Assembly (NCBI GenBank): GCA_016177735.1
Contig: JACOUS010000026.1
Location: forward strand, 66,375-130,374
Direction of reading: 5' to 3'
DNA: 64,000 bases
DNA from: Ignavibacteriales bacterium
Lineage (GTDB): Bacteria; Bacteroidota; Ignavibacteria; Ignavibacteriales; Melioribacteraceae
Shown: piece by piece, positions 22,166 to 38,527 of the stretch
Layout: each line of letters opens with the position of its first letter
How positions within the stretch are numbered: position 1 is the first letter of the stretch
Notes under the pieces: model-generated
The model's input: the letters and a program-made list of their open reading frames with translations, nothing else
Database searches by the model: none
Told to the model about the DNA's origin: nothing
Translations under genes and position numbers: made by a program

Positions 22166-22556
22166 CGTTCGGTTTTTATATTTAATTCGTAGTATTTCTA
22201 CCAAAATTTCTTTCACTGCGACCTCTAAATTGTTTCCAGCTTTGATTCTATTTTCTCCATTAAAGTGCGAAGAAATAATTGCCAACAATATTTTAGTCTA
22301 TAAAAGTCGAAAGCATTTTATTAGAAACTAACGTGCCAAACTTCACTGCCCTTTCCATAAAATTTACAGTGAAAAAATAATGATTATTTCTGAAAAACAA
22401 GCGGTGTAAGAATTCTTTTTAGAATACAATTGCAGACCGCCGCTCTGATTTTCATAAATGAGAAAGCATAACTTTCTTTGAGAAATGGATTGTTGTTATA
22501 GTCTTGTGTTGTTAATGGTTAGATGAAAAAGTAATAAGCATGATTGCATGAAATGA

Positions 22557-22755: not shown

Positions 22756-23865
22756 TTATTTGCAAAATAGTTCTTTCTTCACTGTAACCTTCTCCAACAT
22801 TTTTAAATTAACCTCTACGCCAATTCCCGGTAAAGACGGTACATTCATAGTCCCGTCTTTGTTTACAATAAATTCAGGCTCAACGATATCTTGCTTATAA
22901 TATCTTTTGCTTGCAGATATATCACCGGGCAGAGTAAAATTCGGAAGCGATGCAAGCGCAACATTCCCAGCCCTTCCAATTCCCGATTCAAGCATACCGC
23001 CGTGCCAAACCGGAATATTTTTAGATGCACAATAATCGTGTATCAATTTCGATTCCGTAAACCCGCCAACACGACCCGGCTTAATATTAATTACCCGGCA
23101 GCTGCCCAATTCAATTGCGGCGCGTGTATCATCAATCGAATGAATACTTTCATCCAGGCATAATGGAGTTTTAAGTTCACGTTGAAGTTTTGAATGATCG
23201 TAAATATCTTCATACCCAAGCGGCTGTTCAATTAACAACAAATTGTAATCGTCCATTTGTTTAAACAAATCTATGTCTTTCAATTCGTACGCAGAGTTTG
23301 CATCAACTTGCAGAAGAATATCAGCGAACTGATTTCTTAACGCACTTACAAATTGAATATCGTTACCCGGAGAAATTTTTATTTTGATTCGTTTGTAACC
23401 ATCGGCAAGATAACCTTCTACTTTCCTTATCAACTCTGCGGCGGAAGGTTGAATACCAATACTTACACCTACATCAATTTTATTTCTTGTTCCACCCAGC
23501 ATTTTAGAGAGAGAAATATTTTTTGACTTTGCAAACAAATCCCACAGTGCGGCTTCGAGTCCGGCTTTTGCCATCATGTGCCCGCGTACTTTGGCATTGA
23601 GAGCAATTGCTTCATCAATATTAAGAATGTTCTTTCCAAGAATTGCCGGTATCAAAAACTCGGAAAGTATATGCCAGGCAGTTGTTACAGTTTCGTAAGA
23701 ATAAAACGGTGTCCCTTCTGCAACAGATTCTCCCCAGCCGGTCAAACCTTCTCCGTCAACGCGAACAATAATATGTTCTTCATCATATTCGGTTCCCATT
23801 GATGTTGTGAAAGGAGAAACTAATTCCATTTTAATGTGGCGAAGTTCGATCTTCTCTAATTTCAT
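22756..23865 (-). CDS. Enolase-superfamily racemase, N-acylamino-acid racemase/OSB synthase type
   Basis: 369-residue enolase-superfamily enzyme. All catalytic residues are present: the KxK pair K161/K163, metal ligands D188, E213 and D238, and the second base K262. The late block GGMLESGIGRAGN...LPNFTLPGDISASKRYY is typical of the N-succinylamino-acid racemase/o-succinylbenzoate synthase (NSAR/OSBS) group rather than L-Ala-D/L-Glu epimerase. Known family roles are menaquinone synthesis (MenC) or racemisation of N-acylated amino acids. As the last gene of a peptide-catabolic series with no other men genes nearby, amino-acid racemisation seems more likely (inference). Confidence 0.85.
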   Translation of the reverse strand: MKLEKIELRHIKMELVSPFTTSMGTEYDEEHIIVRVDGEGLTGWGESVAEGTPFYSYETVTTAWHILSEFLIPAILGKNILNIDEAIALNAKVRGHMMAKAGLEAALWDLFAKSKNISLSKMLGGTRNKIDVGVSIGIQPSAAELIRKVEGYLADGYKRIKIKISPGNDIQFVSALRNQFADILLQVDANSAYELKDIDLFKQMDDYNLLLIEQPLGYEDIYDHSKLQRELKTPLCLDESIHSIDDTRAAIELGSCRVINIKPGRVGGFTESKLIHDYCASKNIPVWHGGMLESGIGRAGNVALASLPNFTLPGDISASKRYYKQDIVEPEFIVNKDGTMNVPSLPGIGVEVNLKMLEKVTVKKELFCK

Positions 23866-23894
23866 TTTTGTATCTCTCTGTTTTTTATTTCGAA

Positions 23895-25046
23895 CTATCC
23901 CAATATCTCTTTGTGTTCGTTATAAACTATTCCTCTTTCTTTCAAACCGTTCAGAACAAAATTTACACATTCTTTTTTTTGCCCGATATATTCAGGCGGG
24001 CAAATTCCTTTTCTATTGAACAATCCTTCTGCCAGCATGCGAAGTACAGTCGTTGCTGTATATCCGGTTGTTCTTGCCATAGAGTGAACGTTAGTCTTTT
24101 CGTCATAGCAATCAAACAAATCATAAACATAGCGAAATTTCTTTTTCTCTTTTTCACCTTCGATAATCACTTTCATAATCGTAAATTCTTTATCATTAGG
24201 TTTTAGTTCCCACATTGGAAATAAAAGCTTTGCCGTCAAATCAACCGGTCTAATTTTCGTGTTATTTATTTTTATCTCCTCTTTGCTAAAAAAACCGGCA
24301 TCGCGGAGTATCTGCATTTTTTGAATATGACCCGGATAGCGGAGCGTTTTCTCTTTCATGTTCGGAACCTTCAGCGTAACAGCAAGTGTCCGCAGCCCAT
24401 CACTATTGAATGCCTCAAGCGTTCCGGCTTCAGGGAAATTAATATACTCGGGCTCTGACAATGCCGGACGAATAATTATTTTTCCATTTTCTATATAACG
24501 TGCCGGACGAGTATATTCTTCAATCACGTCAATGGGAGAAAACCCGGCTTTATATTCGAAGGGATATTCTCTAACAACCGGTAAGCCGCCTACATAAATT
24601 AATATTGTCTCCAATCGATCAAGCTGTGAATTGACAAAACCAGCCAGCAAATTGCTCATTCCCGGTGCAACTCCGCAGTCAACAATCGCCGTTACATTTT
24701 TTTCGAGAGCAAGTTTATCAAGTGCAAAAGGATCTTCCGGAAAGAAAGCAATATCAACAACATTTTTGCCGGCACTAATAATTTCTTTAAGTGTACTGAA
24801 TCCCATGAATCCGGGAACAGCACTCAATACTAAATCACAATTTTTGAGTAAGGCACGCAGCTGCTTAGTATCCGAAAGGTCTTTCACTATTTTTCTAACC
24901 GGAATGCCGTTCTGAATTTTATCAAGATTTTGCTTGTTGAGATCGGCAACCGTTACGTTAAATAATTTTTCTTTTGCCAGGTCAACAGCCATCGGGCGGC
25001 CTACTAATCCGGCACCAAGCACTAGTACATTCATTTTTTTTCTCAA
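23895..25046 (-). CDS. Saccharopine dehydrogenase-like / lysine 6-dehydrogenase-like oxidoreductase
   Basis: 383-residue NAD(P)-dependent enzyme. The Rossmann motif VLGAGLVGRPMAVDL is at the N-terminus, and CGVAPGMSNLLAGF and the C-terminal SMARTTGYTATTVLRMLAEG block are typical of saccharopine dehydrogenase family proteins of this size. In the family, close relatives include saccharopine reductases and lysine 6-dehydrogenase, which deaminates lysine directly. Sequence reading cannot separate them. It sits between an M14 carboxypeptidase and an amino-acid racemase, so a role in degrading released lysine or another basic amino acid fits. ATG at residue 5 is an alternative start. Confidence 0.75.
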   Translation of the reverse strand: MRKKMNVLVLGAGLVGRPMAVDLAKEKLFNVTVADLNKQNLDKIQNGIPVRKIVKDLSDTKQLRALLKNCDLVLSAVPGFMGFSTLKEIISAGKNVVDIAFFPEDPFALDKLALEKNVTAIVDCGVAPGMSNLLAGFVNSQLDRLETILIYVGGLPVVREYPFEYKAGFSPIDVIEEYTRPARYIENGKIIIRPALSEPEYINFPEAGTLEAFNSDGLRTLAVTLKVPNMKEKTLRYPGHIQKMQILRDAGFFSKEEIKINNTKIRPVDLTAKLLFPMWELKPNDKEFTIMKVIIEGEKEKKKFRYVYDLFDCYDEKTNVHSMARTTGYTATTVLRMLAEGLFNRKGICPPEYIGQKKECVNFVLNGLKERGIVYNEHKEILG

Positions 25047-25168
25047 AATGTTATCGGCTAAAAATATACAATTAGATAGTTCAACCGCCTCAATAAACTA
25101 AGAAAAGATTTTCAACTAATAATTTGCACAATATTATCATTTTCAATATAGAATAATAAATTTTTTCT

Positions 25169-26686
25169 CTACTGCCGGCTAACAACCCGCAGTATCGGAA
25201 AGTCTTTTCCTACATTTAACAGATACTCAAATTTTTTATATGTAACCAACCCTATTTCGGATTTAGGCTCTAAAGCAGTTACAATCAAATTATTCTTTAA
25301 TTGACTAACCGGGATAAAAATATATTCATCTTCACGGAAACTTTTTTTAATCTCTTTTACTTCAACAGCCGGATCGACCACAGTATCTCTTTCAAAATCC
25401 ATCGAGTCGATTCTACTGATATAATACTGTTCAATTTGTTCATCATCGGATTTTTTGTAATTGGAGTAAGTTAACGAGTGTTTATCTGTCCACTCAATTA
25501 TTTCCAGTAAACTTTTAGGAATTAAATATCCTTTCGGTCTCTGAACATTATAAATAGATTTTACTGCCGGGCGGTAATCATTCACCGTGACAATAGTATC
25601 GTTATTTGAATAATAAGATAAAAGAGGAAGTTCCAATTTACTACCGTCGGGAAAATGCTCTAATTGAACGGCGACATTATTCGGCACATCATTGCTAATT
25701 AATTTTTCTCTTTCCTTTTGAACAAGATTTTTAATTTCATCTTTATAGTTAAAACAAAATTCCAACAAGCCAATCATGCCGGTCATTTGTCCTTCTGCCC
25801 TATGACGAATGTTATCTACAAAATTATCTTTACCGTTCAAGCCCTCTTGTATAAAAGAAAAAGTATTTTGTATTCCGAGACTTTGTCTCCCGTCGTTGAT
25901 ATCAAAAGTGCTGTGGCGTATGTAATCAATTTCCGGTGGTCCGCCGGGGCTATATTCAAAATAAGTGAAACGTCTTTCATTCAAATAATTTTTTATGAAA
26001 GAGAGATATTTTTTTTTCTGAAAGTTTCTTATTTCATCGGATACGTTAATGTTGGTATTTGTTCCTATCTCTTCATCATTGTTAAAACGAGCGCCATAAT
26101 TTTTCCATGTATCTCCGTAAGGAAAGTATTCATGAACATCCATCGTTGCTTCAAAAAGATATTTATCGAATAATTTATGTAACGCGATTGTCTCCGGTTC
26201 AGTAAGAATCAAATGATTCCGGTTCAAGTCGGCGTCGTTTCCGTTGCGTCTCATATTTTTTTCCGAACCGTCGGGATTCATTTGCGGAATCAGGGCAAAG
26301 TCTATCTTTTCGAACAAGTATCTGTTTTCGGGTTTCAACAAATTGCTTGCAAGCAGCAGCGCTCCTTCTTTGCCCGATTGTTCATTGCCGTGTTGTTGTG
26401 CAAAGATGAGCACGCTGATTTTATTTTCATCTTTCCCGAATTCGGTGTTAGAAAATTTCATCACATACAAATTTCTATTTTCAACAGACTTGCCGATTAT
26501 CTCAACAGTCAAAAGGTCGGAAGATTTATCGAGTTCATTAACAAAGCCGGATAATTCGCCGTAAGATGTAATCTGTGAATAATTATTTTTCTCGAGCGGT
26601 GTTTGTTGTGCAAAAGTAATTGTAACCGACAACATTAATACACAAACCGAACTATAGATTTTTTTCACGGTTGGATAGCTCCTCAA
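25169..26686 (-). CDS. Secreted M14-family zinc carboxypeptidase
   Basis: 505-residue exported metallopeptidase. The signal peptide (about 1-26, ending TFAQ) is followed by an M14 catalytic domain: zinc ligands H99 and E102 in QQHGNEQSGKE, and H185 in MDVHEY. Substrate-binding elements QMNPDG (135-140) and RRNGNDADLNRNH are present. The C-terminal third (about 330-505) is a beta-rich accessory domain. The start overlaps the PorV-like gene by four bases. It would trim C-terminal residues from peptides outside the cytoplasm. Confidence 0.88.
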   Translation of the reverse strand: MRSYPTVKKIYSSVCVLMLSVTITFAQQTPLEKNNYSQITSYGELSGFVNELDKSSDLLTVEIIGKSVENRNLYVMKFSNTEFGKDENKISVLIFAQQHGNEQSGKEGALLLASNLLKPENRYLFEKIDFALIPQMNPDGSEKNMRRNGNDADLNRNHLILTEPETIALHKLFDKYLFEATMDVHEYFPYGDTWKNYGARFNNDEEIGTNTNINVSDEIRNFQKKKYLSFIKNYLNERRFTYFEYSPGGPPEIDYIRHSTFDINDGRQSLGIQNTFSFIQEGLNGKDNFVDNIRHRAEGQMTGMIGLLEFCFNYKDEIKNLVQKEREKLISNDVPNNVAVQLEHFPDGSKLELPLLSYYSNNDTIVTVNDYRPAVKSIYNVQRPKGYLIPKSLLEIIEWTDKHSLTYSNYKKSDDEQIEQYYISRIDSMDFERDTVVDPAVEVKEIKKSFREDEYIFIPVSQLKNNLIVTALEPKSEIGLVTYKKFEYLLNVGKDFPILRVVSRQ

Positions 26687-27732
26687 AAGTTAATATCTAA
26701 TGAGACACGGTGGACACTCGGCAGAATATCATACACAGAATATGCATAATCAAATCTGATCAATGTTGATGCGAACGGAACAGAAGCACCGGCACCAAAA
26801 GTAAAGTCTTCATCAGAGTAATTATATTTATAGCCGCCTCTTAAATAAAGACGGTCGAAGAATGAAAACTCTGTACCAAAATTAAGCCGTTCACTGTTAT
26901 CATTCGGATGTACGGCATCAATTCCGCCGCGTACTTTTACAAAATCGGATTGATATATGTCGAAGCCTATTCCTACTTGAAAATTTAACGGCAGAGGGTA
27001 ATCGTCTGTTTGCAGCCGTGCCGGCGTCAATCTGCTCAACGGGTAGTTGTCATTTTTCAGATATTGAATATCGAGATCGGGTCCATCGAATCGCAAATCA
27101 CTGCCGAAATTGCTCATGCACATTGCAATTGTAAGATTTTGAAAATCGAGTTGATATTGTGTCCCTACGTCAAAAGCAAAACCGCCGGCAGATTCATTCC
27201 AAATTTTTTGGGAAACATATTTAACCGTTATGCCAAAGCTGAATTTATCAGTAAGATATTTTGCATACGTTAATCCAAGAGCCAAATCCCGGGCATCATA
27301 AAATCTTCCGGTACCGTTTGGTTTTTCTTCGGTAGTAACTTCAATTCCATCCGTACCGAATGTAATCATACTTAAAGCAAAAACCCCATATCCATCAACG
27401 TTATAAGCAACGGCAGCGGCACTAAAGTCAAAGAGTTTGAACCAATTCATATAAGAAAAATGAGCTTGAGCCGAATTTACTTTTACTAACCCGGCCGGAT
27501 TCCAGAACACCGAAGATGCATCTTGAATATTGCCGGCAACGGCACTACCCATTCCGGCTGCTTTCGCTCCAACCGGTATTTGTAAAAAGTTCGCACCGGA
27601 AGTTCCAAGATTTGGATTTTGCGCAAACATTATTGTATTAACCATAGTAAGTAAGAACAAAATTTTTTTCATTTCCAATCCGCCCGTCGTTAGATTGAAA
27701 AATTTATTAAAAATAATTTTTAGTGCTTTCAT
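26683..27732 (-). CDS. PorV/PorQ-family outer-membrane protein
   Basis: Outer-membrane barrel of the PorV/PorQ (UPF0164-like) family. The N-terminal signature is LQIPVGAKAAGMGSAVAGNIQDASSVFWNPAGLVKV, broken by the first strand. PorV proteins act as T9SS shuttles/chaperones for cargo, and paralogues often accompany surface-protein operons. The ATG at 27732 overlaps the previous stop (ATGA), but the ATG at 27672 (residue 21, MKKILFLLTMVNTIMFAQ) gives a normal signal peptide and is likely the real start. It lies between a putative T9SS cargo protein and an exported carboxypeptidase. Confidence 0.8.
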   Translation of the reverse strand: MKALKIIFNKFFNLTTGGLEMKKILFLLTMVNTIMFAQNPNLGTSGANFLQIPVGAKAAGMGSAVAGNIQDASSVFWNPAGLVKVNSAQAHFSYMNWFKLFDFSAAAVAYNVDGYGVFALSMITFGTDGIEVTTEEKPNGTGRFYDARDLALGLTYAKYLTDKFSFGITVKYVSQKIWNESAGGFAFDVGTQYQLDFQNLTIAMCMSNFGSDLRFDGPDLDIQYLKNDNYPLSRLTPARLQTDDYPLPLNFQVGIGFDIYQSDFVKVRGGIDAVHPNDNSERLNFGTEFSFFDRLYLRGGYKYNYSDEDFTFGAGASVPFASTLIRFDYAYSVYDILPSVHRVSLDINF

Positions 27733-30485
27733 TTTATCACCGCAAATCTTTCAATGAACTCTGCATCTTGAGATTTTAAAACATAGATGTACATGCCCGA
27801 AGCAATTTCCCTACCGCTTTCGGTACGTAAATCCCAAACTTCCGTTCCGCTTCTGCTGTTATGATGTAATGTTTTAACCAAATCGGCATCAACAGTAAAG
27901 ATGTGAATGGTACATTCTTGCGGAAGATTAATAAATTGAATCTGCCTCAAAGGTTCGCGCCGCAATTCGCCAAATTCAGGTTCGTATAAAGAAGAAGCCA
28001 AATACGGATTGGGTACAACTCTAACTCTGTTGATGTTTTGTGTTATCGCCGAATGATCTACAGTAGAACCTTCTATCTTGAATTTATATTTATCCATTAA
28101 GTTTGGCAGAACCGGCTTAACTGTTTCTAAAGAAAATTTATTACCGGCAGAAGGAGGCTGATTTTCAGAAAAGATGATTTTGCCTTTAATGCCATCAAAC
28201 GTAAAAGTACCCGATGAGTAGAGTGTATCAACTGCTAAAATTAATCCGGTATCTTTTACGGTTAGCGAAACAAATTTGCGGTTTTCCGAATCGATGCCAT
28301 TTCCTTCAATATTAATCAGGTAAAAATTGTTCTGCACTAAATTTGTATCAACAACTTCAAAAGAGATTTGCACGATATCGCTTCCGCCAATTCGTGAAAT
28401 ACTTTTTATGAGATCCGGCGGAGTCATTTTGAAAATTACACCGATAGGAATTGACTGTCTCTGCCCTATTTCAAACGGTCTTGAATGCACTAAAGAATCA
28501 ACTTTATTCTTAACTGCATTAACCGAAAAATTAACCGTGATTCGATCACCTTGTTCCGGTCGAAGAGAAGACGTAGTGCCCTCCGGGTCAACCAACTTAA
28601 GTGTAATTCCTTCTGTTGAAAGAGCAAGATTTCTTCCGCCATAAGGATACGGATAGCCAGTTCGTATTACTTCACCGGTTGATAGATTTGTAACATTGAA
28701 AGCGGAAGAAGAGGTAAATTCAATTTCATACTTGTACGGTTTTGTTTTTGCAGAATCATTAACTACTACCGAAACCTGTGTAGCCAAATCGCCGTTTTCT
28801 TTTTTGGGTAAGAATGAAAAGAAAATATCGTAAACATTTCCACCGAGAGAATCATTGTCCACCGGATCAACTAATAAAAGATAATTAGATTTTCCCGTTC
28901 CGGTATATTCAACATTAGAAGACGAAACGGGATTTCTCCCTAATGCAGACGAATGAGGAATAACAGAAACAATATTCGGCGCATCAAGAGTATTTCCCAA
29001 AGCGCTTTCCAAACTTTCGAGAGTGCCCGAACCACGATCATAAGCAGTAATCGAGTACCAATATTCAAATCCGTTAATTATTGTAGTATCGGTATAGCTA
29101 TATTGAAGTCCCGTGTTGCTGCCAATAGAATTAACTAAATCAAATTCGGCAAGTTTTGTCCAATTGAGTCCTTTATCAATACTTCTATAAATTCTATACC
29201 CTTCAAAATCATACTCGCCTGAAAAACCATCAAGACTGTTCTCTGCGTCACTATCCCAAATCAATACTGCTTTGTTATTGCCGGCATTGCCGCTGAGTTT
29301 TGGTCTGGGTGGAGGTTTTGGCAATTGAAAATTTACATCGGCAGTATTTTGCGCTTGCGCTGCGGCATCCAATAATTCATCAAGTGTTTCACCGGCAACA
29401 ATTGCCGTTACAAATGTTAAGGTATCGCCTCTGTTTAATGTGTAAGGACCGGATGAAATATGTGCACACAAATCTAAACCGGATGGCGGAATTGCAGCCG
29501 GATCATCGTAATGAAGATTTGGACTTGAACCGGTATGAAAATACTTGCTGCCAATGGGTGAATTGTATAAAGATTTACTGCTCGACATAATTCCGTATAG
29601 AATCGTATCCTTGTCTGCAATTTCATCATCATCATAAATAACATAATGCATGTCGGTTATACCGGCTTCCGTTCCGTTAATCTCCGGAGTCTTCAAAAAT
29701 TTAACACCCATGAAACCGGTTTTGCCGTCGGGCCATTCGTTCGATATGCCGTCGTCATAAAAGTAAAGAAGATTTTTTGTTTTATCGAAACCGATTCTAT
29801 CATCCAGATATTCCGGGTCGCCGCCACTTACATTGCCAACATCGCAATCGGTGTACAGATTAAAATATAATCCGTTAAGGGTACCGGAACTTTTATTAAC
29901 TATCTGGAATTTGAAGAAGATAATATTCTTAACAAACTTAACACCAAATGCATATCCGGTTTGAATAACTTCTAAGCCGATAATTCCATTTGTAGAATTA
30001 CTGTCATTATAAACAGCATAGCTGTCCTGATCAGAAATAAACAAAGGATCGCCATTCGCATCTTTGGCGTGCCATCCTTTTTCCGGATTCCATGAATTGG
30101 GATCATCGCTGAATGCGATTCGTGCCGTATCCTTATTATTATAACCGGCTGCAGCTTCCCATTCTTCATTATTGGTATATCTTGCTTGAATTACATTGCC
30201 CGGAATACCTACATAAGGATTGATTCTATAGATATAATGTTTTGTGCTGTTAATTGGAAATTCTCCGGAAGGACCTTGTGTAATTCTGCGCGGATAAAGT
30301 TTGCCTCTGTTTTCAAAAAACAAACCGATATTGCTCGCGTTATGCGTTCCGCCGGCTCTGTCCACTATTCCCAAAACTTTCTCAAGCCCGGCTCTTTCTA
30401 TCTCATCTTTTTCTTTACTATTCTGAGAAAATATTATAGAAGTAAAAAACATGGTGATAAAGAAAACTTTTAGCGGCAGTTTCAT
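27729..30485 (-). CDS. Large secreted protein with fibronectin-III domain and C-terminal sorting/FlgD-like domain
   Basis: 918-residue exported protein (signal peptide about 1-20, ending IIFSQ). A central Fn3-like module (about 405-500: AVLIWDSDAENSLDGFSGEYDFEGYRIYRS) follows a beta-rich N-terminal region. The C-terminus (about 820-918) is a FlgD/T9SS-like Ig fold with NPYLASS and GREIASGMYIYVLKS, ending in ERFAVIK. It is probably displayed on the cell surface and might capture polymer or assist the TonB receptor encoded just upstream. No catalytic motif is recognised. Confidence 0.75.
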   Translation of the reverse strand: MKLPLKVFFITMFFTSIIFSQNSKEKDEIERAGLEKVLGIVDRAGGTHNASNIGLFFENRGKLYPRRITQGPSGEFPINSTKHYIYRINPYVGIPGNVIQARYTNNEEWEAAAGYNNKDTARIAFSDDPNSWNPEKGWHAKDANGDPLFISDQDSYAVYNDSNSTNGIIGLEVIQTGYAFGVKFVKNIIFFKFQIVNKSSGTLNGLYFNLYTDCDVGNVSGGDPEYLDDRIGFDKTKNLLYFYDDGISNEWPDGKTGFMGVKFLKTPEINGTEAGITDMHYVIYDDDEIADKDTILYGIMSSSKSLYNSPIGSKYFHTGSSPNLHYDDPAAIPPSGLDLCAHISSGPYTLNRGDTLTFVTAIVAGETLDELLDAAAQAQNTADVNFQLPKPPPRPKLSGNAGNNKAVLIWDSDAENSLDGFSGEYDFEGYRIYRSIDKGLNWTKLAEFDLVNSIGSNTGLQYSYTDTTIINGFEYWYSITAYDRGSGTLESLESALGNTLDAPNIVSVIPHSSALGRNPVSSSNVEYTGTGKSNYLLLVDPVDNDSLGGNVYDIFFSFLPKKENGDLATQVSVVVNDSAKTKPYKYEIEFTSSSAFNVTNLSTGEVIRTGYPYPYGGRNLALSTEGITLKLVDPEGTTSSLRPEQGDRITVNFSVNAVKNKVDSLVHSRPFEIGQRQSIPIGVIFKMTPPDLIKSISRIGGSDIVQISFEVVDTNLVQNNFYLINIEGNGIDSENRKFVSLTVKDTGLILAVDTLYSSGTFTFDGIKGKIIFSENQPPSAGNKFSLETVKPVLPNLMDKYKFKIEGSTVDHSAITQNINRVRVVPNPYLASSLYEPEFGELRREPLRQIQFINLPQECTIHIFTVDADLVKTLHHNSRSGTEVWDLRTESGREIASGMYIYVLKSQDAEFIERFAVIK

Positions 30486-30515
30486 TTCAAAACCTTTATG
30501 AGAATGATTATTTTT

Positions 30516-32993
30516 TTAAAAACCAAAATTGATAGTCGTTCCTAATCTAATTGTTCTCAGCGGACCGAAGTTAGAAGGATCTTGCATATATTCTTTGGAA
30601 TGACTTCCTTCAAAAGTGAAAGACGGATCGCCGGTATCACCATAAACATAAAGCACATTTTTATGATCGGTGAGATTAATTGCTTCAAGAAATAATCTCA
30701 TAACAATATTTTCACTAAGATTAAATCGTTTGCCGATTATCAAATCAATCGAATAGGTTGAAGGGAGCCTGAGTGAATTTTTTTCTACAAACCCAATATC
30801 TCTTCCGCTTGGTGTATATGGATAGCCCGAAGAAGCTCTGGCAATTAAACTCAACTCCATCTGTTCAAAAACTTGGCTGCCGAAAATTTCCGGTCCGGTA
30901 TTTTCGGGAATAGTGAGTGTTCCGGAAAGATTGAGCACATGAGATTTATCGAAATCCAAATAATAAAGCTGGGTAGATTCTTGCGTGCCGGGATATTGCT
31001 CTGTTTCCGATGAAGCACTGCCTTTGGCTGCAGAATAAGTGTAAGTTAAACCTCCCGAAAAATATTTATCCGGGCGGATATCAACATTCACTTCAAAACC
31101 TTTCATGTTTGCGTAATCTTCATTAACATAAAGAGTGTACCCGGTGTATCGTCCATCTACAAATGGGAAAAAATATTTTGTTCCTATTAATCCGCTAACA
31201 TCTTTATAATAAGCCGTCAAACTCATTGCAATGCGGTCGGAAAATTGATGCGAGATGCCTACTTCATAAGCAATGGTTCGTTGTGCATCCAAATCGGCTT
31301 GACCGAACAAAGGTTCGCGGACGTTAACATCGTACTGCCTGTTCTCAAAAAGAAATTGAAATTCAGGATTTTGGAAAAAATGACCGTATGCAAAATGAAG
31401 TTTGGTTTTATCCGAGATCGGATGGGCAATTCCTATGCGCGGTGAAAATTGTGAACGGGCTTTCACTTTAATTATTGATTTTGGATTTAACGGATTGTCT
31501 CTAAACTCCGCATTTGCATTCAAATAGTCATATCGTAATCCAATGTTAATTACAAGAAAAGGAAATTCTATTTTGTCTTGAACATAAGCCGCAGCTTCAA
31601 ACGGATTTGTTCTATAATCGTTGATATAAGGAAATGTTCTTTTGGGATCATAAATAGTAAAAAGTTTCAGCCAATTTTTTTTGAAGGCACCGCCGAATTT
31701 AATTTCGTTCAAGCCGTCAACTTGCCAAACAGCATCGGCTTTCAAATCAATAGTTGCCGTGCGGCTATCGGTTAGTTCAAGCGGGTCGGCAGCTTTGTAG
31801 AATTCAAATCCATTCCCGATACCGGAAAAATATTCAAACTGAGAAGTTGATAAATATTGCGATGTGTCTTTATCTATTCCGGAATAATATCCTTGGTTAA
31901 AATAAGAGAGACGCAGTTCATAAAATAAATTAGACCTAACCGTGTGTGTAGCAATTAAAGAAGATTGCCAGCTGTCGGTTCGGCGTCTTAGATATTGTCC
32001 CGGAATATATTTGTACGAGTGATTATAACCTTGATGTTTATCTAAACTTCCACGGTTTGAAAAAGAAATTTTAAAAGATTCGATAGCATTCGAAGTGAAC
32101 TTGATGAAAAAGGTTTGAGTAGTATCATAACCAAATGGAAGATAACTTAACTTGCTGTTATGTTCACCCGAAACAAAAAATTTAAGATCGTTCCCCCAAA
32201 TAGGTCCACCGATGCTGCCGTTAATTCTAAGTTCACCTAATTCAGAAAATTTTTTAACTCCAAAGCGGCTTGTTCTTACTTCAAGCTTTCCGTCAAACTT
32301 TTCACCGCCGTCTCTGGTAACAATATTAACAACGCCGCTTAATGCATTTCCATATTCAGCGTTGAATGTTCCGCTAAGCAGACTCATTTCCTGTATAGCA
32401 TCGTTATTGAGCTGGGTTGCAAGTCCGCCAAGCAAAGGGTCTTGCACGTACATTCCGTCAACCAAATAAGCAACTTCGTTAGATCTTCCGCCCCTAATAT
32501 GAAGCTCGCTTCCAGAGCCAATCACACCGGCTTGCAGCGCAAGAAGTTCTGTAAAATTTGAAGCCGGCAAAGATTCTATTTCTTTGCGCGAAAGAACCGA
32601 AATGCTGCTTGTCAGGTCTTTTTGAATTAACGGGGTTTGTGCCGTAACTGTAACCCCCCGAACTTCCACCGATCCTTGATTGAGTTGAACCGGCAATGAA
32701 GTTGTTTGATCGGCAATAATTTTAACCTGGCTGATTGTAATCTGCTCGTAGCCAATAAAACTTACTTTTACCTGATAAGTGCCCGGAGGAATATTTAGAA
32801 TTACGTACTTCCCTTCTTCATCCGCTGCGGCGCCAAGATTAGTACCAATAATTAAAATATTCGCACCGGCAAGTGCTTCGCCGGTCTGTGCATCTGTAAT
32901 TTTGCCGGCAAGTTTTCCGGTAATTCCGGCAAACAAATTAATCTGTACAAGTATCAATAAGAAAATTATTTTTTTCATAATTGTTTCCGTCAA
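30516..32993 (-). CDS. TonB-dependent outer-membrane receptor with CarboxypepD_reg-like domain
   Basis: 825-residue TonB-dependent receptor. The signal peptide is best from the ATG at residue 6 (MKKIIFLLILVQINLFAG). An N-terminal carboxypeptidase-regulatory-like beta-sandwich (about 25-105, GKITDAQTGEALAGANILI) precedes the plug (about 125-225, LHIRGGRSNEVAYLVDGMYVQDP...FNAEYGNALSGVVNIVTRDGG). A 22-strand-type barrel with a C-terminal aromatic residue follows. It imports a ligand across the outer membrane using TonB energy. No SusD partner is encoded next to it; the large Fn3 protein downstream may take that role. The context points to a peptide-like ligand. Confidence 0.9.
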   Translation of the reverse strand: MTETIMKKIIFLLILVQINLFAGITGKLAGKITDAQTGEALAGANILIIGTNLGAAADEEGKYVILNIPPGTYQVKVSFIGYEQITISQVKIIADQTTSLPVQLNQGSVEVRGVTVTAQTPLIQKDLTSSISVLSRKEIESLPASNFTELLALQAGVIGSGSELHIRGGRSNEVAYLVDGMYVQDPLLGGLATQLNNDAIQEMSLLSGTFNAEYGNALSGVVNIVTRDGGEKFDGKLEVRTSRFGVKKFSELGELRINGSIGGPIWGNDLKFFVSGEHNSKLSYLPFGYDTTQTFFIKFTSNAIESFKISFSNRGSLDKHQGYNHSYKYIPGQYLRRRTDSWQSSLIATHTVRSNLFYELRLSYFNQGYYSGIDKDTSQYLSTSQFEYFSGIGNGFEFYKAADPLELTDSRTATIDLKADAVWQVDGLNEIKFGGAFKKNWLKLFTIYDPKRTFPYINDYRTNPFEAAAYVQDKIEFPFLVINIGLRYDYLNANAEFRDNPLNPKSIIKVKARSQFSPRIGIAHPISDKTKLHFAYGHFFQNPEFQFLFENRQYDVNVREPLFGQADLDAQRTIAYEVGISHQFSDRIAMSLTAYYKDVSGLIGTKYFFPFVDGRYTGYTLYVNEDYANMKGFEVNVDIRPDKYFSGGLTYTYSAAKGSASSETEQYPGTQESTQLYYLDFDKSHVLNLSGTLTIPENTGPEIFGSQVFEQMELSLIARASSGYPYTPSGRDIGFVEKNSLRLPSTYSIDLIIGKRFNLSENIVMRLFLEAINLTDHKNVLYVYGDTGDPSFTFEGSHSKEYMQDPSNFGPLRTIRLGTTINFGF

Positions 32994-33015
32994 AACCCTC
33001 TTGCTGAAAAAGTAA

Positions 33016-33870
33016 TTACTTACTTATCAATTTTTGACTATCCATTATTTTTTGAGTTTCGGTTAAGAATCTGTTGGCTTTAATTTTACTCTGCACTGCA
33101 CATTGAGTAGCAATAGCATTTATAATAACCGAAATTGCCGAAAAGGAATTTGTGAAAAGCATATTGTCGCTTTTAACCGTCAGGCAAATTTCTGAATGGA
33201 GTGTGATTGGCGAAGCCTCTTTATTCGTAATGGAAATTATTTTAATGCCTCTCTCTTTCGCAAATTTTGCCGTCTCGATTGTTTCATTGGAATATGGAGG
33301 GAAGGAAAAACATACCAGCAGATCATTCTTATTCAAAAATAAAATCTGTTCGTGAAAGACAACACTCGTGTGCTTCAAAACAGAAGCATCAATTCCCACT
33401 TGCGTTAATTGATATGCAAGTATTTCGGCAAGAAGATAGGAGATTCCTAACCCGGCTGTATAAACCCGCTGTGCTTTAACCATTGCAGAAACGCTGCGGT
33501 TAAAATTTTCTCTATCAATTAAATGAAGTGTGTCGTTTATATTTTTTATATCGAGGTTGGCAACTTCGGTTAAAAGATCCTCTTTTGCACTGTGTTTAAA
33601 AAGCGGAAATATTTCTTTGTTGTCTAATTGGCTTTTAAGAGAGTTTGCAACCTCTGCACGCAGTTCATTGAAACCGCTGAAGCCGATATTCTGAGCCACA
33701 CGAACTATTGTAGCAACACTTATCTTTGTAGCTTTAGAAAGTTCATGAATACTCAAGAATGGTATTTCATCCAAATTATCGATTAAGAATTCTGCAATCT
33801 TCCTCTGATTTTTTGGAAGAGCATTAAACTTGCTCTGAATTTTGCTTTTTATTTCCTGGTACCTTGCCAT
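33016..33870 (-). CDS. MurR/RpiR-family transcriptional regulator (HTH + SIS)
   Basis: 284-residue regulator. An N-terminal helix-turn-helix (about 30-65, LSIHELSKATKISVATIVRVAQNIGFSGFNEL) and a C-terminal SIS phosphosugar-binding domain (about 115-250, VYTAGLGISYLLAEILAYQLTQVG) identify the RpiR/MurR family. It lies inside the catabolic series, between the small T9SS cargo gene and the TonB receptor, and is probably its local regulator. The SIS domain usually senses a phosphorylated sugar, which is unexpected beside peptidases and may hint at a muropeptide- or amino-sugar-derived signal. Confidence 0.88.
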   Translation of the reverse strand: MARYQEIKSKIQSKFNALPKNQRKIAEFLIDNLDEIPFLSIHELSKATKISVATIVRVAQNIGFSGFNELRAEVANSLKSQLDNKEIFPLFKHSAKEDLLTEVANLDIKNINDTLHLIDRENFNRSVSAMVKAQRVYTAGLGISYLLAEILAYQLTQVGIDASVLKHTSVVFHEQILFLNKNDLLVCFSFPPYSNETIETAKFAKERGIKIISITNKEASPITLHSEICLTVKSDNMLFTNSFSAISVIINAIATQCAVQSKIKANRFLTETQKIMDSQKLISK

Positions 33871-33917
33871 TTTATCAAACCATTTTATTTAAGAAATACT
33901 TCCGCTTTGTTCAAAGA

Positions 33918-35048
33918 TTACTTTAACACTATCATTTTCTTTGCGGCAGTGTAACTTCCCGACTTCAGTTGATAAAAATAGACACCGCTCGAAAGCTGCA
34001 AGCTGCTGGTTGATAATTGAATTGAATATGTACCGGCTTGTTTATATTCATTCACAAGTGAAGCTACTTCGTTCCCAAGAACATCATATACTTTCAAAGC
34101 AGTGTAACCCGGGACTTGTAACTTGTAACGAATTGTTGTTTCCGGATTAAACGGATTCGGATAGTTTTGTTCGAGTGTAAAATCAGTTGGTAGTTTATTC
34201 AAGCCCGGTTCTACCGAGGTTATGAGATTATATTTTTGCTGCGCTTGTTCCATACCGGCAAGCATTTCAGCTTCGTTCGTGCCGTAAGAAAGAGCTATGT
34301 AATAAGTTACCGAATCACCGGTGGCAATAGACCTGGAATTGAACGACGGAATCAGAGCTGGAGCGTCAACATCTGCATCATTCGGATTCGTTACAAAAGA
34401 AGAATCAAAAGAGTTATAGCTAAGTTTGCTGTAGAATAATGAGTCTTTCTCATAGTCGGTAAAATAATAGAAAGCACTCAAGGATTTTAAATTTTCAGAC
34501 AAAGGTTTGAAACCAACAACCTTTCCATTCTTTGTACTAATTATGCCGCTTGCTTTTGAATACGTAACTGTATCTCCACCGTTTCTATTATTATCTATCC
34601 GCGGTAGATGTTCAAAACCGATTATTGCATCAATAGAATTTGTTTCTCTATTTGTAACTGTGTATTTAACAAGAAACGATGTTAGGTTCTGCCAGCAATA
34701 AACATTTACTTTTTCCAATACATTTGGTGGTGCGCTTGAATAATTATTATTGTAACTGCCGTAAATTTCATAATCTCCATAAGTTGGAGAGGCAAGCATT
34801 TGAGTCGGCTCTTCAATATCAAGGTCATTTATAAGATCGAAGACACTATTTTCTCCGGTACCGACAAGCAATGCATTCCTATATAATTGCCGGGTAGTAT
34901 CGGGCAGCGAATAGATAGCAACTCTTCCGTAGTCGCTTACATAAATATTTATTTTATCGAGATACAAATCGACTTGACCAAACGCCGATTGATTAAAAAT
35001 AAAAAAGAAACTAATAACAGCGGCTGGATAGAGTAGTAGTTTTTTCAT
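33918..35048 (-). CDS. Secreted protein with T9SS type A C-terminal sorting domain
   Basis: 376-residue exported protein. The signal peptide (about 1-24) is followed by a beta-rich domain of unknown function (about 25-275). The C-terminal sorting domain (about 290-376) contains PTDFTLEQNYPNPFNPET, then TALKVYDVLGNEVASLVNE and SGVYFYQLKSG...KKMIVLK. This marks it as T9SS cargo anchored or released at the surface. The codons for the Leu-Gln-Val-Pro-Gly-Tyr part of the sorting domain contain a 7-base repeat (ACTTGTA twice on the plus strand, 34114-34127) that also occurs in non-coding DNA at 38799. Confidence 0.88.
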   Translation of the reverse strand: MKKLLLYPAAVISFFFIFNQSAFGQVDLYLDKINIYVSDYGRVAIYSLPDTTRQLYRNALLVGTGENSVFDLINDLDIEEPTQMLASPTYGDYEIYGSYNNNYSSAPPNVLEKVNVYCWQNLTSFLVKYTVTNRETNSIDAIIGFEHLPRIDNNRNGGDTVTYSKASGIISTKNGKVVGFKPLSENLKSLSAFYYFTDYEKDSLFYSKLSYNSFDSSFVTNPNDADVDAPALIPSFNSRSIATGDSVTYYIALSYGTNEAEMLAGMEQAQQKYNLITSVEPGLNKLPTDFTLEQNYPNPFNPETTIRYKLQVPGYTALKVYDVLGNEVASLVNEYKQAGTYSIQLSTSSLQLSSGVYFYQLKSGSYTAAKKMIVLK

Positions 35049-35091
35049 AACGCACCTCGTTGGTTAATTAAAAATTTGGTGAATCAAATAA

Positions 35092-36501
35092 TTATTGCCA
35101 GCCAAATAAATTTGGCGGAATCAGTAGTATTAATCCCAGCAGAATCAAAATGATCATCAACGGTAAAACCCATTTTGCCCATTTATCCCACGGCACTCTT
35201 GCCATAGTAAGAGCTCCCATAGTTACTGCAGAAGTGGGGATAATAATGTTTGTGTATTCTCCAAACTGAAATGCGAGAATGGATATCTGTCTTGTTACTC
35301 CGCTTAAATCTGCAAGCGGAGCCATTATCGGCATAGTGAGCGCTGCTTGTCCGCTTCCGGAATGAACAAAGAAATTTATGATTGCTTGTATTATGAACAT
35401 CTTTTGTGATGCAAAAACCGGCGAGGAAGATTGAACAAAGGGAGTAAGTGAATAAAGCACAGTATCGATAATCTGTCCATCACGTGAAATAACTAAAGTG
35501 GCTCTTGCCAATGCTATTATTATGGCAGTTCCTACTAAATCTTTTGCACCTTCTACGAAACCTTTTACAATCTCATCGGATTTTAGTCCTCCAATAATTC
35601 CGACTAATATCCCCATAATAAAAAAGAGAGCAGATATTTCTTCTATGAACCAGCCGAGCTCAATTACCCCAACAACTAAAAAAACAAGAGAAAGCAAAAA
35701 CGTCACCAGCACAATTTTTCGTCGTACGGAAAAAGTCACGTTATTGTTATACTGTTCTTCGAACTTTTCATTTTTTCTTCTTTCACTATCTTCATTATAG
35801 GTAGGACTGATTTGAGGATTGTGCAAAACTTTTTTTGCATAATAGGAAACAAATACTACGGCTATAAGATTGGATATGAACCAGACAACAAGTCTATAAC
35901 CAATACCTGAAAAAATAGGGACATCGGCAATACCCTGAGCAATACCAACATTAAACGGATTAATGAATGCAGATGCAAAACCAATTTGAGCACCAATTAA
36001 AGGAATTGCAACACCGGTAATCGAATCGTAGCCAAGAGCCAAACAAATAGGTACAATTATCAAAACAAATGGAATTATTTCCTCATTCATTCCGAATGTT
36101 GCCCCGCCAAGTGAAAATAAAGAAAGCAAAACCGGGATGAATAGATTTCTTAATGTCTTTGATGATTGATGAGCTTTTGCAAGTTTATTAAGTAAGGAAT
36201 TTATTGCATCGGTTTTTTGAAAAACATTAAACGCTCCGCCAACTAGCAAAACAAATCCAATTATCACCGAACCTTCTACAAATCCTTTTATTGGAGAAAT
36301 GAAAAGCGCCCCAAGCCCTTGCGGTTTGCTTTCAACGTAACGAAATGAATTTTGCACTACAACTTCTTTGCCGTCAATGACCGTCCGTTCGTACTTCCCA
36401 CCGGGGATTATCCATGTTAATGCTGCTATCAAAACAAGCAAAGAGAAAATTAGCAAGTAAGTATTGGGAACTCTGAATCTAATTTTTTTTCTCCGGCTCA
36501 T
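35092..36501 (-). CDS. YfcC-family transporter (putative basic amino acid/peptide antiporter)
   Basis: 469-residue integral membrane protein with about 12 helices. The N-terminus FRVPNTYLLIFSLLVLIAALTWIIPGGKYER and the paired hairpins with FGMNEEIIPFVLIIVPICLALGYDS and FINPFNVGIAQGIA identify the YfcC/ArcD-like family. These proteins are predicted to move basic amino acids or small peptides. It overlaps the cyanophycinase gene by four bases, so both are probably made together. Uptake of the products of cyanophycinase (beta-Asp-Arg or related dipeptides) is a plausible role but is not shown by sequence. Confidence 0.8.
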   Translation of the reverse strand: MSRRKKIRFRVPNTYLLIFSLLVLIAALTWIIPGGKYERTVIDGKEVVVQNSFRYVESKPQGLGALFISPIKGFVEGSVIIGFVLLVGGAFNVFQKTDAINSLLNKLAKAHQSSKTLRNLFIPVLLSLFSLGGATFGMNEEIIPFVLIIVPICLALGYDSITGVAIPLIGAQIGFASAFINPFNVGIAQGIADVPIFSGIGYRLVVWFISNLIAVVFVSYYAKKVLHNPQISPTYNEDSERRKNEKFEEQYNNNVTFSVRRKIVLVTFLLSLVFLVVGVIELGWFIEEISALFFIMGILVGIIGGLKSDEIVKGFVEGAKDLVGTAIIIALARATLVISRDGQIIDTVLYSLTPFVQSSSPVFASQKMFIIQAIINFFVHSGSGQAALTMPIMAPLADLSGVTRQISILAFQFGEYTNIIIPTSAVTMGALTMARVPWDKWAKWVLPLMIILILLGLILLIPPNLFGWQ

Positions 36502-37361
36502 TCAATTACTCTTTTTGTTTTGAGATCGAACCTGTCCCCATCTATCAATACGTGTAACTTCATGCCGGTTATGCCGGTATTTCCGTTTTTATCTTCGCGG
36601 ATATTACATGAGTCGGTCGGATCATAAACAAGAACTTGATTGCTGCCGACTACTTCAAATGTGTCATCAGGATATACTATAATTGAGGTAGATTCGTCGA
36701 TTGCAACGCCAATAAGATCGGGATGTTCAATTAGGCTTGATATAGTTCTGTTGTGCCTTTTTCTTTTAAGAAAATGTTGATCAATGATTACGTTTTTTAG
36801 AAATCCGAATCCTTGTTTTGTCTCTACGTTTCCTCTTTCAATTGTTACAAAACTTTTTGTAGAGTCTTTATTTATCAATTCATTGCCTGTAATCATAACT
36901 TCACTCATAACAGCAGCACCGGCACTCGTGCCCCCTACTACCCCTCCGTTGTTGTACAAGTCAAATACTTTTGCAAGTAATTTGGTACCGAGCATATCTC
37001 TTGTAAGATCGCTTTGATCACCGCCGAGAAAAAAGACAGCGGTTGCCTCGTCAACTTTTTTTAAATTGCTATCGGCATCCGCTGTTTCTCTTGTAAAAAT
37101 TAAATAATCGGAGTAAGTACCCAATTCCTTAAATTCTTCTACTTGTATGAGAGAATTTTCGATTGGATCTGAACCGGCATTAGGGATAATTATAATTTTC
37201 GCTTTTGGTCCACCGGCAAGTTCAACAAATTTTTTCATGATGGATGTTACTTGCGCGCCGCCAATTATAACTAACTTTCCCCTCTCCTTTGAATAGACAT
37301 ATGAATTAAATAGTAAGACGGTTAAAAACAAACCGATAAATATTTTTTTAATCATTTCCAT
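36498..37361 (-). CDS. Exported cyanophycinase-like serine peptidase (S51)
   Basis: 287-residue protein with an N-terminal signal-like segment (about 6-24, IFIGLFLTVLLFNSYVYS). The catalytic serine is S146 in GGTSAGAAVMS. The upstream FLGGDQ (111-116) and the cyanophycinase-type DQHFLKRKRHNR (194-205) and AIDESTS are all present, which separates it from the PepE dipeptidase group. Cyanophycinases cut the Asp backbone of cyanophycin to beta-Asp-Arg dipeptides. The leader suggests action outside the cytoplasm, on polymer from other cells. It overlaps the M20 peptidase gene by 14 bases. Confidence 0.85.
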   Translation of the reverse strand: MEMIKKIFIGLFLTVLLFNSYVYSKERGKLVIIGGAQVTSIMKKFVELAGGPKAKIIIIPNAGSDPIENSLIQVEEFKELGTYSDYLIFTRETADADSNLKKVDEATAVFFLGGDQSDLTRDMLGTKLLAKVFDLYNNGGVVGGTSAGAAVMSEVMITGNELINKDSTKSFVTIERGNVETKQGFGFLKNVIIDQHFLKRKRHNRTISSLIEHPDLIGVAIDESTSIIVYPDDTFEVVGSNQVLVYDPTDSCNIREDKNGNTGITGMKLHVLIDGDRFDLKTKRVIE

Positions 37362-38460
37362 TTCTCCTCACAAGTTCCAAAGCTATTTCAGCGGACTTTA
37401 TTAAATCCTCGATGTAAATAAATTCATCATTACCATGAGGATTTTGAGCGCCGATGCCGAGATTTACAGACCCGATTCCTCTTTTGTTCAGAGAATTTGC
37501 ATCGCTTCCGCCAAGTGATATTTTAGGCTGTGGTATTAATCCCACAGCAGTTAGAGCACGTACAATTTCCGTATAAACATCCGAATTCTCGGAAATTGTG
37601 TACGGGGAAAAATCCCAATTATGATCGAGTACTATTGAAGCGTTAGCGGCTTCAACTTCTTTCTTAAATACGTCAGCGAGTATATTAAAATGGTTTTCAG
37701 CCTTTTGTGAATTAAATGATCTAACTTCCCCTTTAAGCTCTGCAAATTCGGGAATGACATTGACCGCAAAACCGCTGTTAAGTGTTCCAATATTTAGTGT
37801 TGTTTCTTCGTCAATTCTTCCTAAGGGAAGTTTGCTGATTGCCCTTGCAGCAATTTGCAATGCATTAATTCCCCTTTCGGGTGCAATACCCGAATGAGAT
37901 GCTTTCCCGATTACTTTTATTTGAAATGCAATAGCACCACACGCAGAATAAATAAAGTTGCCGGGTCTGTAGCTCGAATCGAATACAAATCCTTTTTTTA
38001 CTTTTTTATCTAATTCGAGATTTAATGAGCCGTAAAGTGTCGCCTCTTCGCAAGTCGTAAAAGCAACCGTAAAATTTTTAACTGGAATTTGTTCCTTCGC
38101 AATCATTTCTAAAGTATAAAGTAGAACAGAAACACCGGCACGGTTGTCAACTCCGAGTACTGTCTCCCCGGAAGAAGTTATTCTATTTTCTGTAACTATT
38201 GGAGTTACACCGGTCGTTGGGCGGGCAGTATCCATGTGAGCTAATAGAACAAAATCACCGCCATCACCAATTTTACAAATTACATTGCCTGTATTACTAC
38301 CGGTTTTATTTCTAGAATTATCTTCTGTTACTTCATAACCAAGATTTGTCAAGAATGTATCTATAAAATTTGCAATTGGTTTCTCACTACCGGAAAGTGC
38401 ATTGATCTTTGTAAGCTGCAAAAAGAGATTTATCAAATTATTGTCGTTCTTATGTAACAT
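37348..38460 (-). CDS. M20-family metallopeptidase (peptidase T-like)
   Basis: 370-residue cytoplasmic zinc peptidase. The metal and catalytic residues of clan MH are visible: H75 and D77 (LLAHMDTA), bridging D105 (LGVDNRAG), the base E138 and ligand E139 (TCEEA), D161, and H342. The dimerisation domain (ASHSGIAPERGINALQIAARAI) is inserted in the middle. There is no signal peptide. It opens the 11-gene series, with a consensus-like promoter upstream, and overlaps the cyanophycinase gene. It may hydrolyse the imported dipeptides; an N-acyl-amino-acid hydrolase role is an alternative because M20 enzymes also act with NSAR-type racemases. Confidence 0.85.
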   Translation of the reverse strand: MLHKNDNNLINLFLQLTKINALSGSEKPIANFIDTFLTNLGYEVTEDNSRNKTGSNTGNVICKIGDGGDFVLLAHMDTARPTTGVTPIVTENRITSSGETVLGVDNRAGVSVLLYTLEMIAKEQIPVKNFTVAFTTCEEATLYGSLNLELDKKVKKGFVFDSSYRPGNFIYSACGAIAFQIKVIGKASHSGIAPERGINALQIAARAISKLPLGRIDEETTLNIGTLNSGFAVNVIPEFAELKGEVRSFNSQKAENHFNILADVFKKEVEAANASIVLDHNWDFSPYTISENSDVYTEIVRALTAVGLIPQPKISLGGSDANSLNKRGIGSVNLGIGAQNPHGNDEFIYIEDLIKSAEIALELVRRNGND

Positions 38461-38498
38461 TTTTTACAAAATTCATTATTAATGAAATAATTGTTTCA

Positions 38499-38527
38499 GA
38501 AATATGAAAAAAAAGTTTTATTGTCAA
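38499..38527 (-). promoter_or_regulatory. Putative promoter of the 11-gene catabolic series
   Basis: On the minus strand TTGACA (38527-38522) is followed after exactly 17 bases by TATTTC (38504-38499). The predicted start would be near 38492, about 30 bases before the ATG at 38460. No Shine-Dalgarno sequence is seen in the short leader. Confidence 0.5.

Follow-up and report, generated by a model that had tools for sequence, protein, structure and literature searches.

Introduction

Gene clusters for scavenging cyanophycin have been described for strain L21-Spi-D4 and for F. pacifica (Ben Hania et al., as cited in PMC10206079), and an excerpt of the citing paper presents the cyanophycin utilization loci of Bacteroidota as sets of a cyanophycinase, an isoaspartyl dipeptidase and a transporter, reporting the isoaspartyl dipeptidases of Firmicutes and Bacteroidota as undiscovered. 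In excerpts of two other papers, a TonB receptor is noted near a cyanophycinase in Citromicrobium (PMC3400609), and Por-tailed and untailed S51 peptidases are noted in a soda-lake Balneolaeota isolate and in Salinivirga (PMC6243061). How does a locus from the Ignavibacteria compare with these systems? The stretch analyzed here, called the window, is 64,000 nucleotides long and comes from an Ignavibacteriales bacterium (assembly GCA_016177735.1, contig JACOUS010000026.1, positions 66,375 to 130,374). Eleven minus-strand open reading frames (ORFs) occupy its positions 22756-38460, beginning with genes for an M20 peptidase, an S51 cyanophycinase-like peptidase and a YfcC transporter. Judging from families, motifs and gene order, it is fairly probable that they form a locus under its own regulation for scavenging cyanophycin, or another polymer or oligomer with similar beta-aspartyl linkages, and the best reading is that of a variant of the Bacteroidota "cyanophycin utilization locus" with different uptake and cutting proteins.

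Hereafter G000 is the genome holding the window, other genomes are numbered G### and the loci or stretches fetched around matches L###. With the described locus (Ben Hania et al. via the excerpt of PMC10206079; L191) the window shares an S51 gene, a beta-Asp dipeptidase, for which M20 is the candidate here, and a transporter (YfcC in L191) behind a TonB-type receptor; its cluster transport consists of the YfcC/DcuC protein and the TonB receptor, and its genome has no cyanophycin synthetase over the cut-off. It differs in that IadA/IaaA is absent from the cluster and M20 is found instead, that TonB, FN3 and PorV proteins take the place of SusC/SusD, and that an RpiR regulator with a tandem operator belongs to the cluster. 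In Flammeovirga pacifica (WPAGA1, L191) the order is SusC-SusD-lipoprotein-S51-IaaA-YfcC, so that IaaA lies downstream of S51 and not in M20's upstream place. A sequence-only reading of the window had called the system undescribed. This variant is new, but the claim cannot stand in full because loci with a cyanophycinase, an isoaspartyl dipeptidase and a transporter are already in print for Bacteroidota (PMC10206079, in excerpt).

A conserved gene order

The sequence-only reading had described eleven minus-strand genes with gaps of 122 bases or less, many overlapping by four bases, behind a TTGACA-17-TATTTC promoter. All the ORFs and the promoter are in place, and the gaps measure 122, 47, 43, 30, 29 and 22 bases; overlaps of four bases do exist, but only at three of the ten junctions, with one of 14 bases besides. 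Stretches of up to 20 kb were read around 23 S51 matches, and a short search locus elsewhere where the contig gave no more. A match to the window S51 is present in 24 of 58 related genomes, and M20 lies directly upstream of S51 in 21 of these 24. The conserved order is M20–S51–YfcC–T9SS cargo–RpiR–TonB–FN3–PorV, the cargo being a protein with a type IX secretion system (T9SS) tail. Of the 21 M20-linked genomes (window counted), 19 show RpiR and 18 show YfcC (missing in L041, L042 and L043, divergent in L037). The TonB-FN3-PorV trio was also seen in 18; it is missing in L041, and the contigs of G026 and G045 end too early, that of G045 showing the start of the TonB gene before ending. The genes are thus not scattered in the relatives and no strong internal terminator divides the series, so that the claim of one conserved, probably co-regulated locus is borne out by the recurring order. 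The three S51-holding genomes without an upstream M20 (G036, G038 and G040) have S51 beside a cyanophycin synthetase and are exactly the three of the 58 with a synthetase over the cut-off; IaaA lies inside the synthetase cluster in G036 and G038.

Sister loci add a second S51 gene, about 680 aa long where complete and often situated between PorV and M14, which is called the surface S51 here, and a Pfam T9SS tail was found on all four of the four scanned. They share such a T9SS-tailed enzyme with the extracellular CphE or Por-tailed S51 type noted for the Balneolaeota isolate and Salinivirga (excerpt of PMC6243061), whereas the window genome lacks the tailed gene and keeps only the untailed exported S51. 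The second half of the surface S51 is a weakly recognizable second S51-like domain (hhalign E 5.8e-5, probability 66); in the sister loci (e.g. L158:6588-8612) these T9SS-tailed proteins apparently consist of an intact S51 domain with a degenerate copy behind it.

A wider scan of named genomes covered the best 80 of 585 confirmed S51 matches. M20 is directly upstream of S51 in 22 of these 80 loci, or in 18 of the 66 that have at least 1.5 kb upstream, and YfcC is directly downstream in 25. IaaA occurs in five and CphA in seven of the 80, none of them with M20. Among the matches listed, M20-linked loci include some from Ignavibacteriota, Calditrichota, KSB1, Elusimicrobiota and Bacteroidales. 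All six Bacteroidales ones among them (L142, L145, L153, L163, L165 and L177) carry the enzymes behind SusC and SusD as identified by family models, and a lipoprotein with a Cleaved_Adhesin match follows SusD in the three scanned.

Promoter and tandem operator

The region 38527-38453 holds TTGACA-17-TATTTC (38527-38499) followed by two TGWAA-N6-TTWCA palindromes 30 bp apart. Promoter-like sites as such occur in the region at about the chance level (57 vs 55.6 expected), as do terminator-like sites (17 vs 15.2 expected), and the minus-strand terminator-like matches within the series, 5 to 9 pairs in stem length, all lie inside coding sequence. The window promoter nevertheless stands above chance because its spacing to the operator is kept: TTGAC precedes the first operator site by 28-29 nt in all 19 of the M20- or S51-first loci examined, and by 31-34 nt in five of six pairs of RpiR-first loci. 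These figures used 25 of the 30 tandem pairs described below, the pairs left out being those of L096, of L135 (which duplicates L046) and of L152 (from the assembly that also gave L148), and the two of L137.

In 15 of 20 direct cases, the window among them, M20 is preceded by at least two operator sites (at most one mismatch), a count that is partly circular because the motif was first read from these direct relatives; shuffles average 0.13, and in a control only two of 234 other genes of the same loci have at least two sites. Of the 20, 14 have sites in tandem at a distance of 29-31 bp. In 149 sources, 2.39 Mb in sum, 30 tandem pairs were found, with the loci L046/L135, L042/L043 and L148/L152 not independent of each other. 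Twenty-seven pairs precede the first gene of a cluster, namely 26 ahead of called first-gene ORFs and that of L152 ahead of an RpiR gene found by tblastn; of the other three, one lies ahead of a GH9 gene in G000 and two belong to L137, at a distance from its S51. Block shuffles of 148 sources gave 0, 0 and 0 tandem pairs, and six Markov runs gave no pair at up to one mismatch; at up to two, a single run produced one pair. The most frequent distance between sites is 30 bp (21 pairs); six pairs are 29 bp apart and two 31 bp, and no other distance from 17 to 69 has more than five. In RpiR-first loci (L140, L141, L148, L161 and L194) the tandem stands before RpiR, and in L128, where no M20 was found, before S51. 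Neither an RpiR homologue nor a tandem pair was found anywhere in the stretches of the six M20-linked Bacteroidales SusC/SusD loci.

Conservation shows the operator at the level of DNA sequence, and RpiR is probably its binder. A -10 box touching the first site and a second site over the start codon fit repression. As to the stray pairs, the tandem motif at L096:7233-7278 (G000:C28) is outside the cluster, with a GH9 cellulase-like gene following about 180 nt further on, and may be a second site or chance; as a second regulon site in G000 it was judged doubtful. At L137:20327-20402, three operator-like sites follow one another at 30 bp, close to where the stretch ends and about 10 kb from the S51 of L137.

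Placement of the proteins and the uptake trio

Hydrophobic export-type N-terminal stretches are present in the window S51, M14, T9SS cargo, TonB, FN3 and PorV proteins. M20 starts without a signal in six of seven relatives shown, and the start of the seventh (L036) is probably mis-called. These N-termini fit the envelope-spanning arrangement of the sequence-only reading and point to a route of surface capture, outer-membrane import, periplasmic S51, inner-membrane YfcC and cytoplasmic M20. The FN3 protein has no Pfam match; its predicted structure is beta-rich (mean pLDDT 73.6, pTM 0.47) and gave low TM-score matches only.

It is to be noted that G000 has eight further loci in which a TonB, an FN3-type and a PorV-type gene are adjacent (L116-L123), with varied neighbours, making nine sets with the window, and that T9SS-tail matches lie beside several of these others. 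Like SusC/SusD loci, such sets join a TonB receptor to a large surface partner and are repeated with different neighbours; unlike them, their partners are an FN3-type protein and a PorV homologue. No match to SusD was found in G000 by a search limited to PF07980, and 12 of the 58 genomes have any. This suggests that the trio is a general uptake module resembling SusCD, and it may replace SusCD, because the same enzymes lie behind SusC/SusD in the six Bacteroidales loci. No description of a TonB/PorV module in Ignavibacteria was found in open-licence PubMed Central texts, and a literature search on cyanophycinase with SusD gave no cyanophycinase among the matches listed.

The S51 and M20 enzymes

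In alignment A1, which holds 18 of the 21 cluster S51 proteins, the motifs GGDQ, GxSAG, DQHF..R.R..R and IDE are invariant in all 18 rows. On the S51 tree (85 rows, 36 without a group label, midpoint root), the synthetase-linked S51 of G036 and G038 fall among M20-linked rows, within a 32-row branch supported at 96/93. The M20 label changes at least four times, five being the count compared with shuffled labels, which average 11.6; M20 linkage is clustered on this tree, yet not of one origin there. The S51 of the Bacteroidales loci L145 and L153 has a lipoprotein-like start. Family and motifs are those of a cyanophycinase, and the window S51 would be expected to have that activity.

What, then, would split the resulting dipeptides? 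The best matches of an 18-row M20 profile are to Peptidase T and tripeptidase entries; a poly(aspartic acid) hydrolase and Xaa-Arg dipeptidase are matched more weakly. IadA is over the cut-off in none of the 58 genomes, with weak partial matches in all 58. IaaA was seen near cluster genes only in G036 and G038, within the synthetase clusters, and in G042; it was not found in G006 and G010, which have the cluster and are only 81% and 86% complete. Because M20 never occurs together with IaaA in the 80 loci of the wider scan, it is a candidate, on genomic grounds, for the isoaspartyl dipeptidase reported as undiscovered in Bacteroidota.

Possible function and alternative explanations

Taken together, the genes look like a switchable unit for eating a nitrogen-rich storage polymer, or similar peptides, of other microbes. 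The FN3 protein and the T9SS-tailed protein would capture oligomers on the cell surface, and the TonB receptor, with the PorV-like protein as a presumed partner, would let them in. The exported S51 would cut the Asp backbone in the periplasm to give beta-Asp-Arg/Lys dipeptides, and YfcC, judging from its conserved place, may carry these inward. Cytoplasmic M20 would then split them into Asp and Arg or Lys, as suggested by such loci carrying either M20 or IaaA. M14 may trim peptides at the envelope, and the last gene would supply MenC activity, with the lysine dehydrogenase optional. RpiR would repress the operon via the two palindromes, at the -10 box and the start codon, until a ligand appears.

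Several observations weigh against this reading. The solved structure closest to S51 by sequence is 7uqv (140.7 bits, vs 92.3 bits for Synechocystis 3en0), which bears the title pseudo-CphB and is reportedly inactive; motifs alone are therefore no proof of S51 activity. Neither the window genome nor G026 has the surface S51, which the other 19 of the 21 cluster genomes carry. IaaA homologues are present in 51 of the 58 genomes, with two in G000 on other contigs, so that M20 need not be the sole dipeptidase; in G042 about 4 kb separate an IaaA gene from the gene of the surface S51, and a PepT-like M20 could be a general peptidase. As to regulation, besides the circularity mentioned above, G011 (L041) has operators without an RpiR in its stretch, L129 lacks the operator although M20, S51 and an RpiR homologue are there, and the tandem is absent in six of the 20 direct cases.

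The resemblance to 7uqv leads to one alternative, namely that the operon serves peptide uptake in general and that its S51, catalytically dead like the Pseudobacteroides pseudo-CphB, acts as a binding protein. Invariant catalytic positions throughout A1 would be odd for a dead enzyme, and with synthetase-linked S51 in the same branch of the tree we hold this to be improbable. A somewhat better candidate, though still an unlikely one, is the scavenging of aged or damaged peptides carrying isoaspartyl or D-residues, and not of cyanophycin: S51 and M20 would cut beta-Asp bonds in detrital protein, M14 would trim the ends, and the racemase with D-amino-acid-type enzymes would handle D-residues. 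M14 and then an NSAR-type gene, 75-76% identical to the window NSAR, do follow M20-S51-YfcC in two of the six Bacteroidales loci (L145 and L153), whose genomes have no menB over the cut-off, so that the racemase there is probably not MenC. A D-cysteine-desulfhydrase-type PALP enzyme and a beta-lactamase-fold protein stand between M14 and NSAR in G035, and an Amidohydro_3 protein stands beside NSAR in G042, G048 and G010. However, the D-type genes are not in the window, M14 and NSAR are often unlinked, neither is found in the other four Bacteroidales loci, and this S51 branch keeps cyanophycinase motifs and has synthetase-linked members. Turnover of the cell's own cyanophycin is the least credible explanation, to which we give almost no weight: according to an excerpt of PMC10206079, organisms with both a cyanophycinase and a synthetase usually have them in one cluster, but no synthetase over the cut-off was found in G000 or in any of the 21 M20-linked genomes, and the explanation was rejected on that ground. 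A cyanophycin-type, beta-Asp-linked substrate, as the sequence-only reading had proposed, thus remains the best guess.

A larger proposal may be put forward tentatively, with less than even confidence in the whole of it: that the locus is a second architecture for scavenging beta-aspartyl polymers, with M20 as the undiscovered Bacteroidota-type isoaspartyl dipeptidase, YfcC as a beta-Asp dipeptide importer, the trio as a T9SS-linked SusCD equivalent for many substrates, and a promiscuous NSAR/OSBS enzyme that displaced menC and so ties a catabolic gene to menaquinone synthesis. The locus is of interest in several ways: M20, conserved beside a cyanophycinase, is a named candidate for the missing isoaspartyl dipeptidase; there is a defined operator on which an unstudied regulator probably acts; the trio may stand in for SusCD, the genome having no SusD (PF07980) match; and a housekeeping gene has likely been replaced by one for a promiscuous enolase-superfamily enzyme.

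The last gene and the men operon

The last gene belongs to the NSAR/OSBS enzymes (enolase-superfamily model TIGR01928, 374 bits, cut-off 201) and aligns best to solved structures of N-acylamino acid racemase/OSBS. The sequence-only reading took it for a racemase acting in catabolism. The men operon of G000 (L204, G000:C16) has menF, menD, menH, menB, menA and menE in a row, with menA and menE overlapping by four bases and no menC between them. Another menC was looked for in G000 with the NSAR protein, which gave only a DgcA-like relative; the same search missed the divergent menC of G004, and no menC-profile search was made. Among menB-positive genomes, 11 of 12 with a close NSAR (at least 60% identity) have no menC-like gene beside menB, and 33 of 42 others have one, counts that are not independent since the genomes are related, so that a Fisher value overstates their independence. 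Twenty men operons were read, with NCBIfam naming for the L204 genes and the L207 menC only and the others matched to these by BLAST clusters. In 10 of the 12 close-NSAR genomes menC is missing between menA and menE; G039 keeps it, and in G010 a 121-aa menC piece is left in the slot (L213, G010:C13, 5505-5870). All six operons read from genomes without an NSAR at 40% identity or more have menC, including those of G004 and G043, which the coordinate test had missed. At 40-59% identity, G044 lacks menC and G029 has it.

Because the men operon lacks exactly menC, the last gene is probably MenC and most likely makes o-succinylbenzoate in this organism; what sets it apart from other NSAR/OSBS enzymes is that it appears to have displaced the operon-borne menC in G000. 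As a demonstrated catabolic step here, NSAR was rejected in view of the men operons without menC in close-NSAR genomes, and there is no N-succinyl- or N-acyltransferase among the eleven genes as a catabolic partner. In Bacteroidales CF (G058) and G059, the latter a 1.9-Mb metagenome-assembled genome that may be incomplete, the cluster NSAR is present and no menB is over the cut-off, so that a second, catabolic role is possible there; both roles can hold for a promiscuous enzyme.

The saccharopine/lysine dehydrogenase, listed with the system by the sequence-only reading, is in the cluster in only two of 21 cluster genomes (G000 and G035) and was dropped as a core gene. G039, a genome without an S51 match, has it too, next to an M14 gene that is split; there (L099:8866-13097, G039:C60), M14 in two overlapping frames is followed by the dehydrogenase and NSAR, perhaps a remnant of a lost cluster. 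CphZ-type M14 dipeptide hydrolases are of the succinylglutamate desuccinylase/aspartoacylase type; the window M14 has a PF00246 match and an export-type start, with weak matches, far below the cut-off, to N-acetyl-ornithine deacetylase and MpaA models. D-amino-acid-type genes, not present in the window, were seen beside M14/NSAR in L100, L101, L102 and L104.

Features of the window

The coordinates are collected in Table 1. Most gene labels of the sequence-only reading agree with Pfam and NCBIfam families, the exceptions being the last gene, in its role, and the FN3 label. M20 has a Pfam match, and a PepT-like model gave 241 bits, below its cut-off of 274; S51 matches the TIGR02069 cyanophycinase model at 175 bits, above the cut-off of 127. 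The transporter belongs to the DcuC Pfam family, with the YfcC model at 403 bits (below the cut-off of 500), and the PorV-family model gave 217 bits (cut-off 90). The T9SS tail, RpiR, TonB receptor, M14 and saccharopine-dehydrogenase labels are likewise upheld.

Table 1. Features of the eleven-gene series and its borders in the window.
Feature	Position	Strand	Basis
-35 box TTGACA of the operon promoter	38522..38527	-	sequence and conserved spacing to operator
-10-like box TATTTC, abutting operator site 1	38499..38504	-	sequence
Operator site 1, TGAAACAATTATTTCA	38483..38498	-	30 bp from site 2
Operator site 2, TGTAAAAAATGTTACA, across the start codon of M20	38453..38468	-	conserved palindrome
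M20 metallopeptidase, PepT-like, no signal peptide seen; candidate beta-Asp-X dipeptidase	37348..38460	-	Pfam/NCBIfam, conserved place
S51 cyanophycinase-like peptidase, export-type N-terminus	36498..37361	-	Pfam/NCBIfam, motifs, tree
YfcC/DcuC-family inner-membrane transporter; candidate beta-Asp dipeptide importer	35092..36501	-	Pfam/NCBIfam, conserved place
Surface protein with T9SS tail (T9SS cargo)	33918..35048	-	Pfam/NCBIfam
RpiR/SIS regulator; probable tandem-operator binder	33016..33870	-	families, operator conservation
TonB-dependent receptor, CarboxypepD_reg N-terminus; first ATG is codon 6	30516..32993	-	
918-aa beta-rich surface protein (FN3 protein)	27729..30485	-	weak PorZ-model match at C-terminus, 23.6 bits
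PorV/PorQ-family outer-membrane protein; internal ATG at codon 21 may be the true start	26683..27732	-	
M14 zinc carboxypeptidase, export-type N-terminus	25169..26686	-	
Saccharopine/lysine-6-dehydrogenase-like enzyme; passenger gene	23895..25046	-	
NSAR/OSBS-family enzyme, probably MenC of G000	22756..23865	-	
Terminator-like hairpin, 12 pairs, then T run; beyond the last gene	22137..22166	-	

Upstream of the series lie lipoyl-synthase-like, E2 and E1 dehydrogenase genes, and downstream a ferredoxin-like frame (from ORF reading alone) and then genes of the 2-oxoacid:ferredoxin oxidoreductase type; neither flank shows any tie to the eleven-gene unit. In the gap after the operon (22557-22676) there are three copies of GTACGAAGTACGA, one with a mismatch, where 0.01 would be expected, perhaps a dispersed intergenic repeat.

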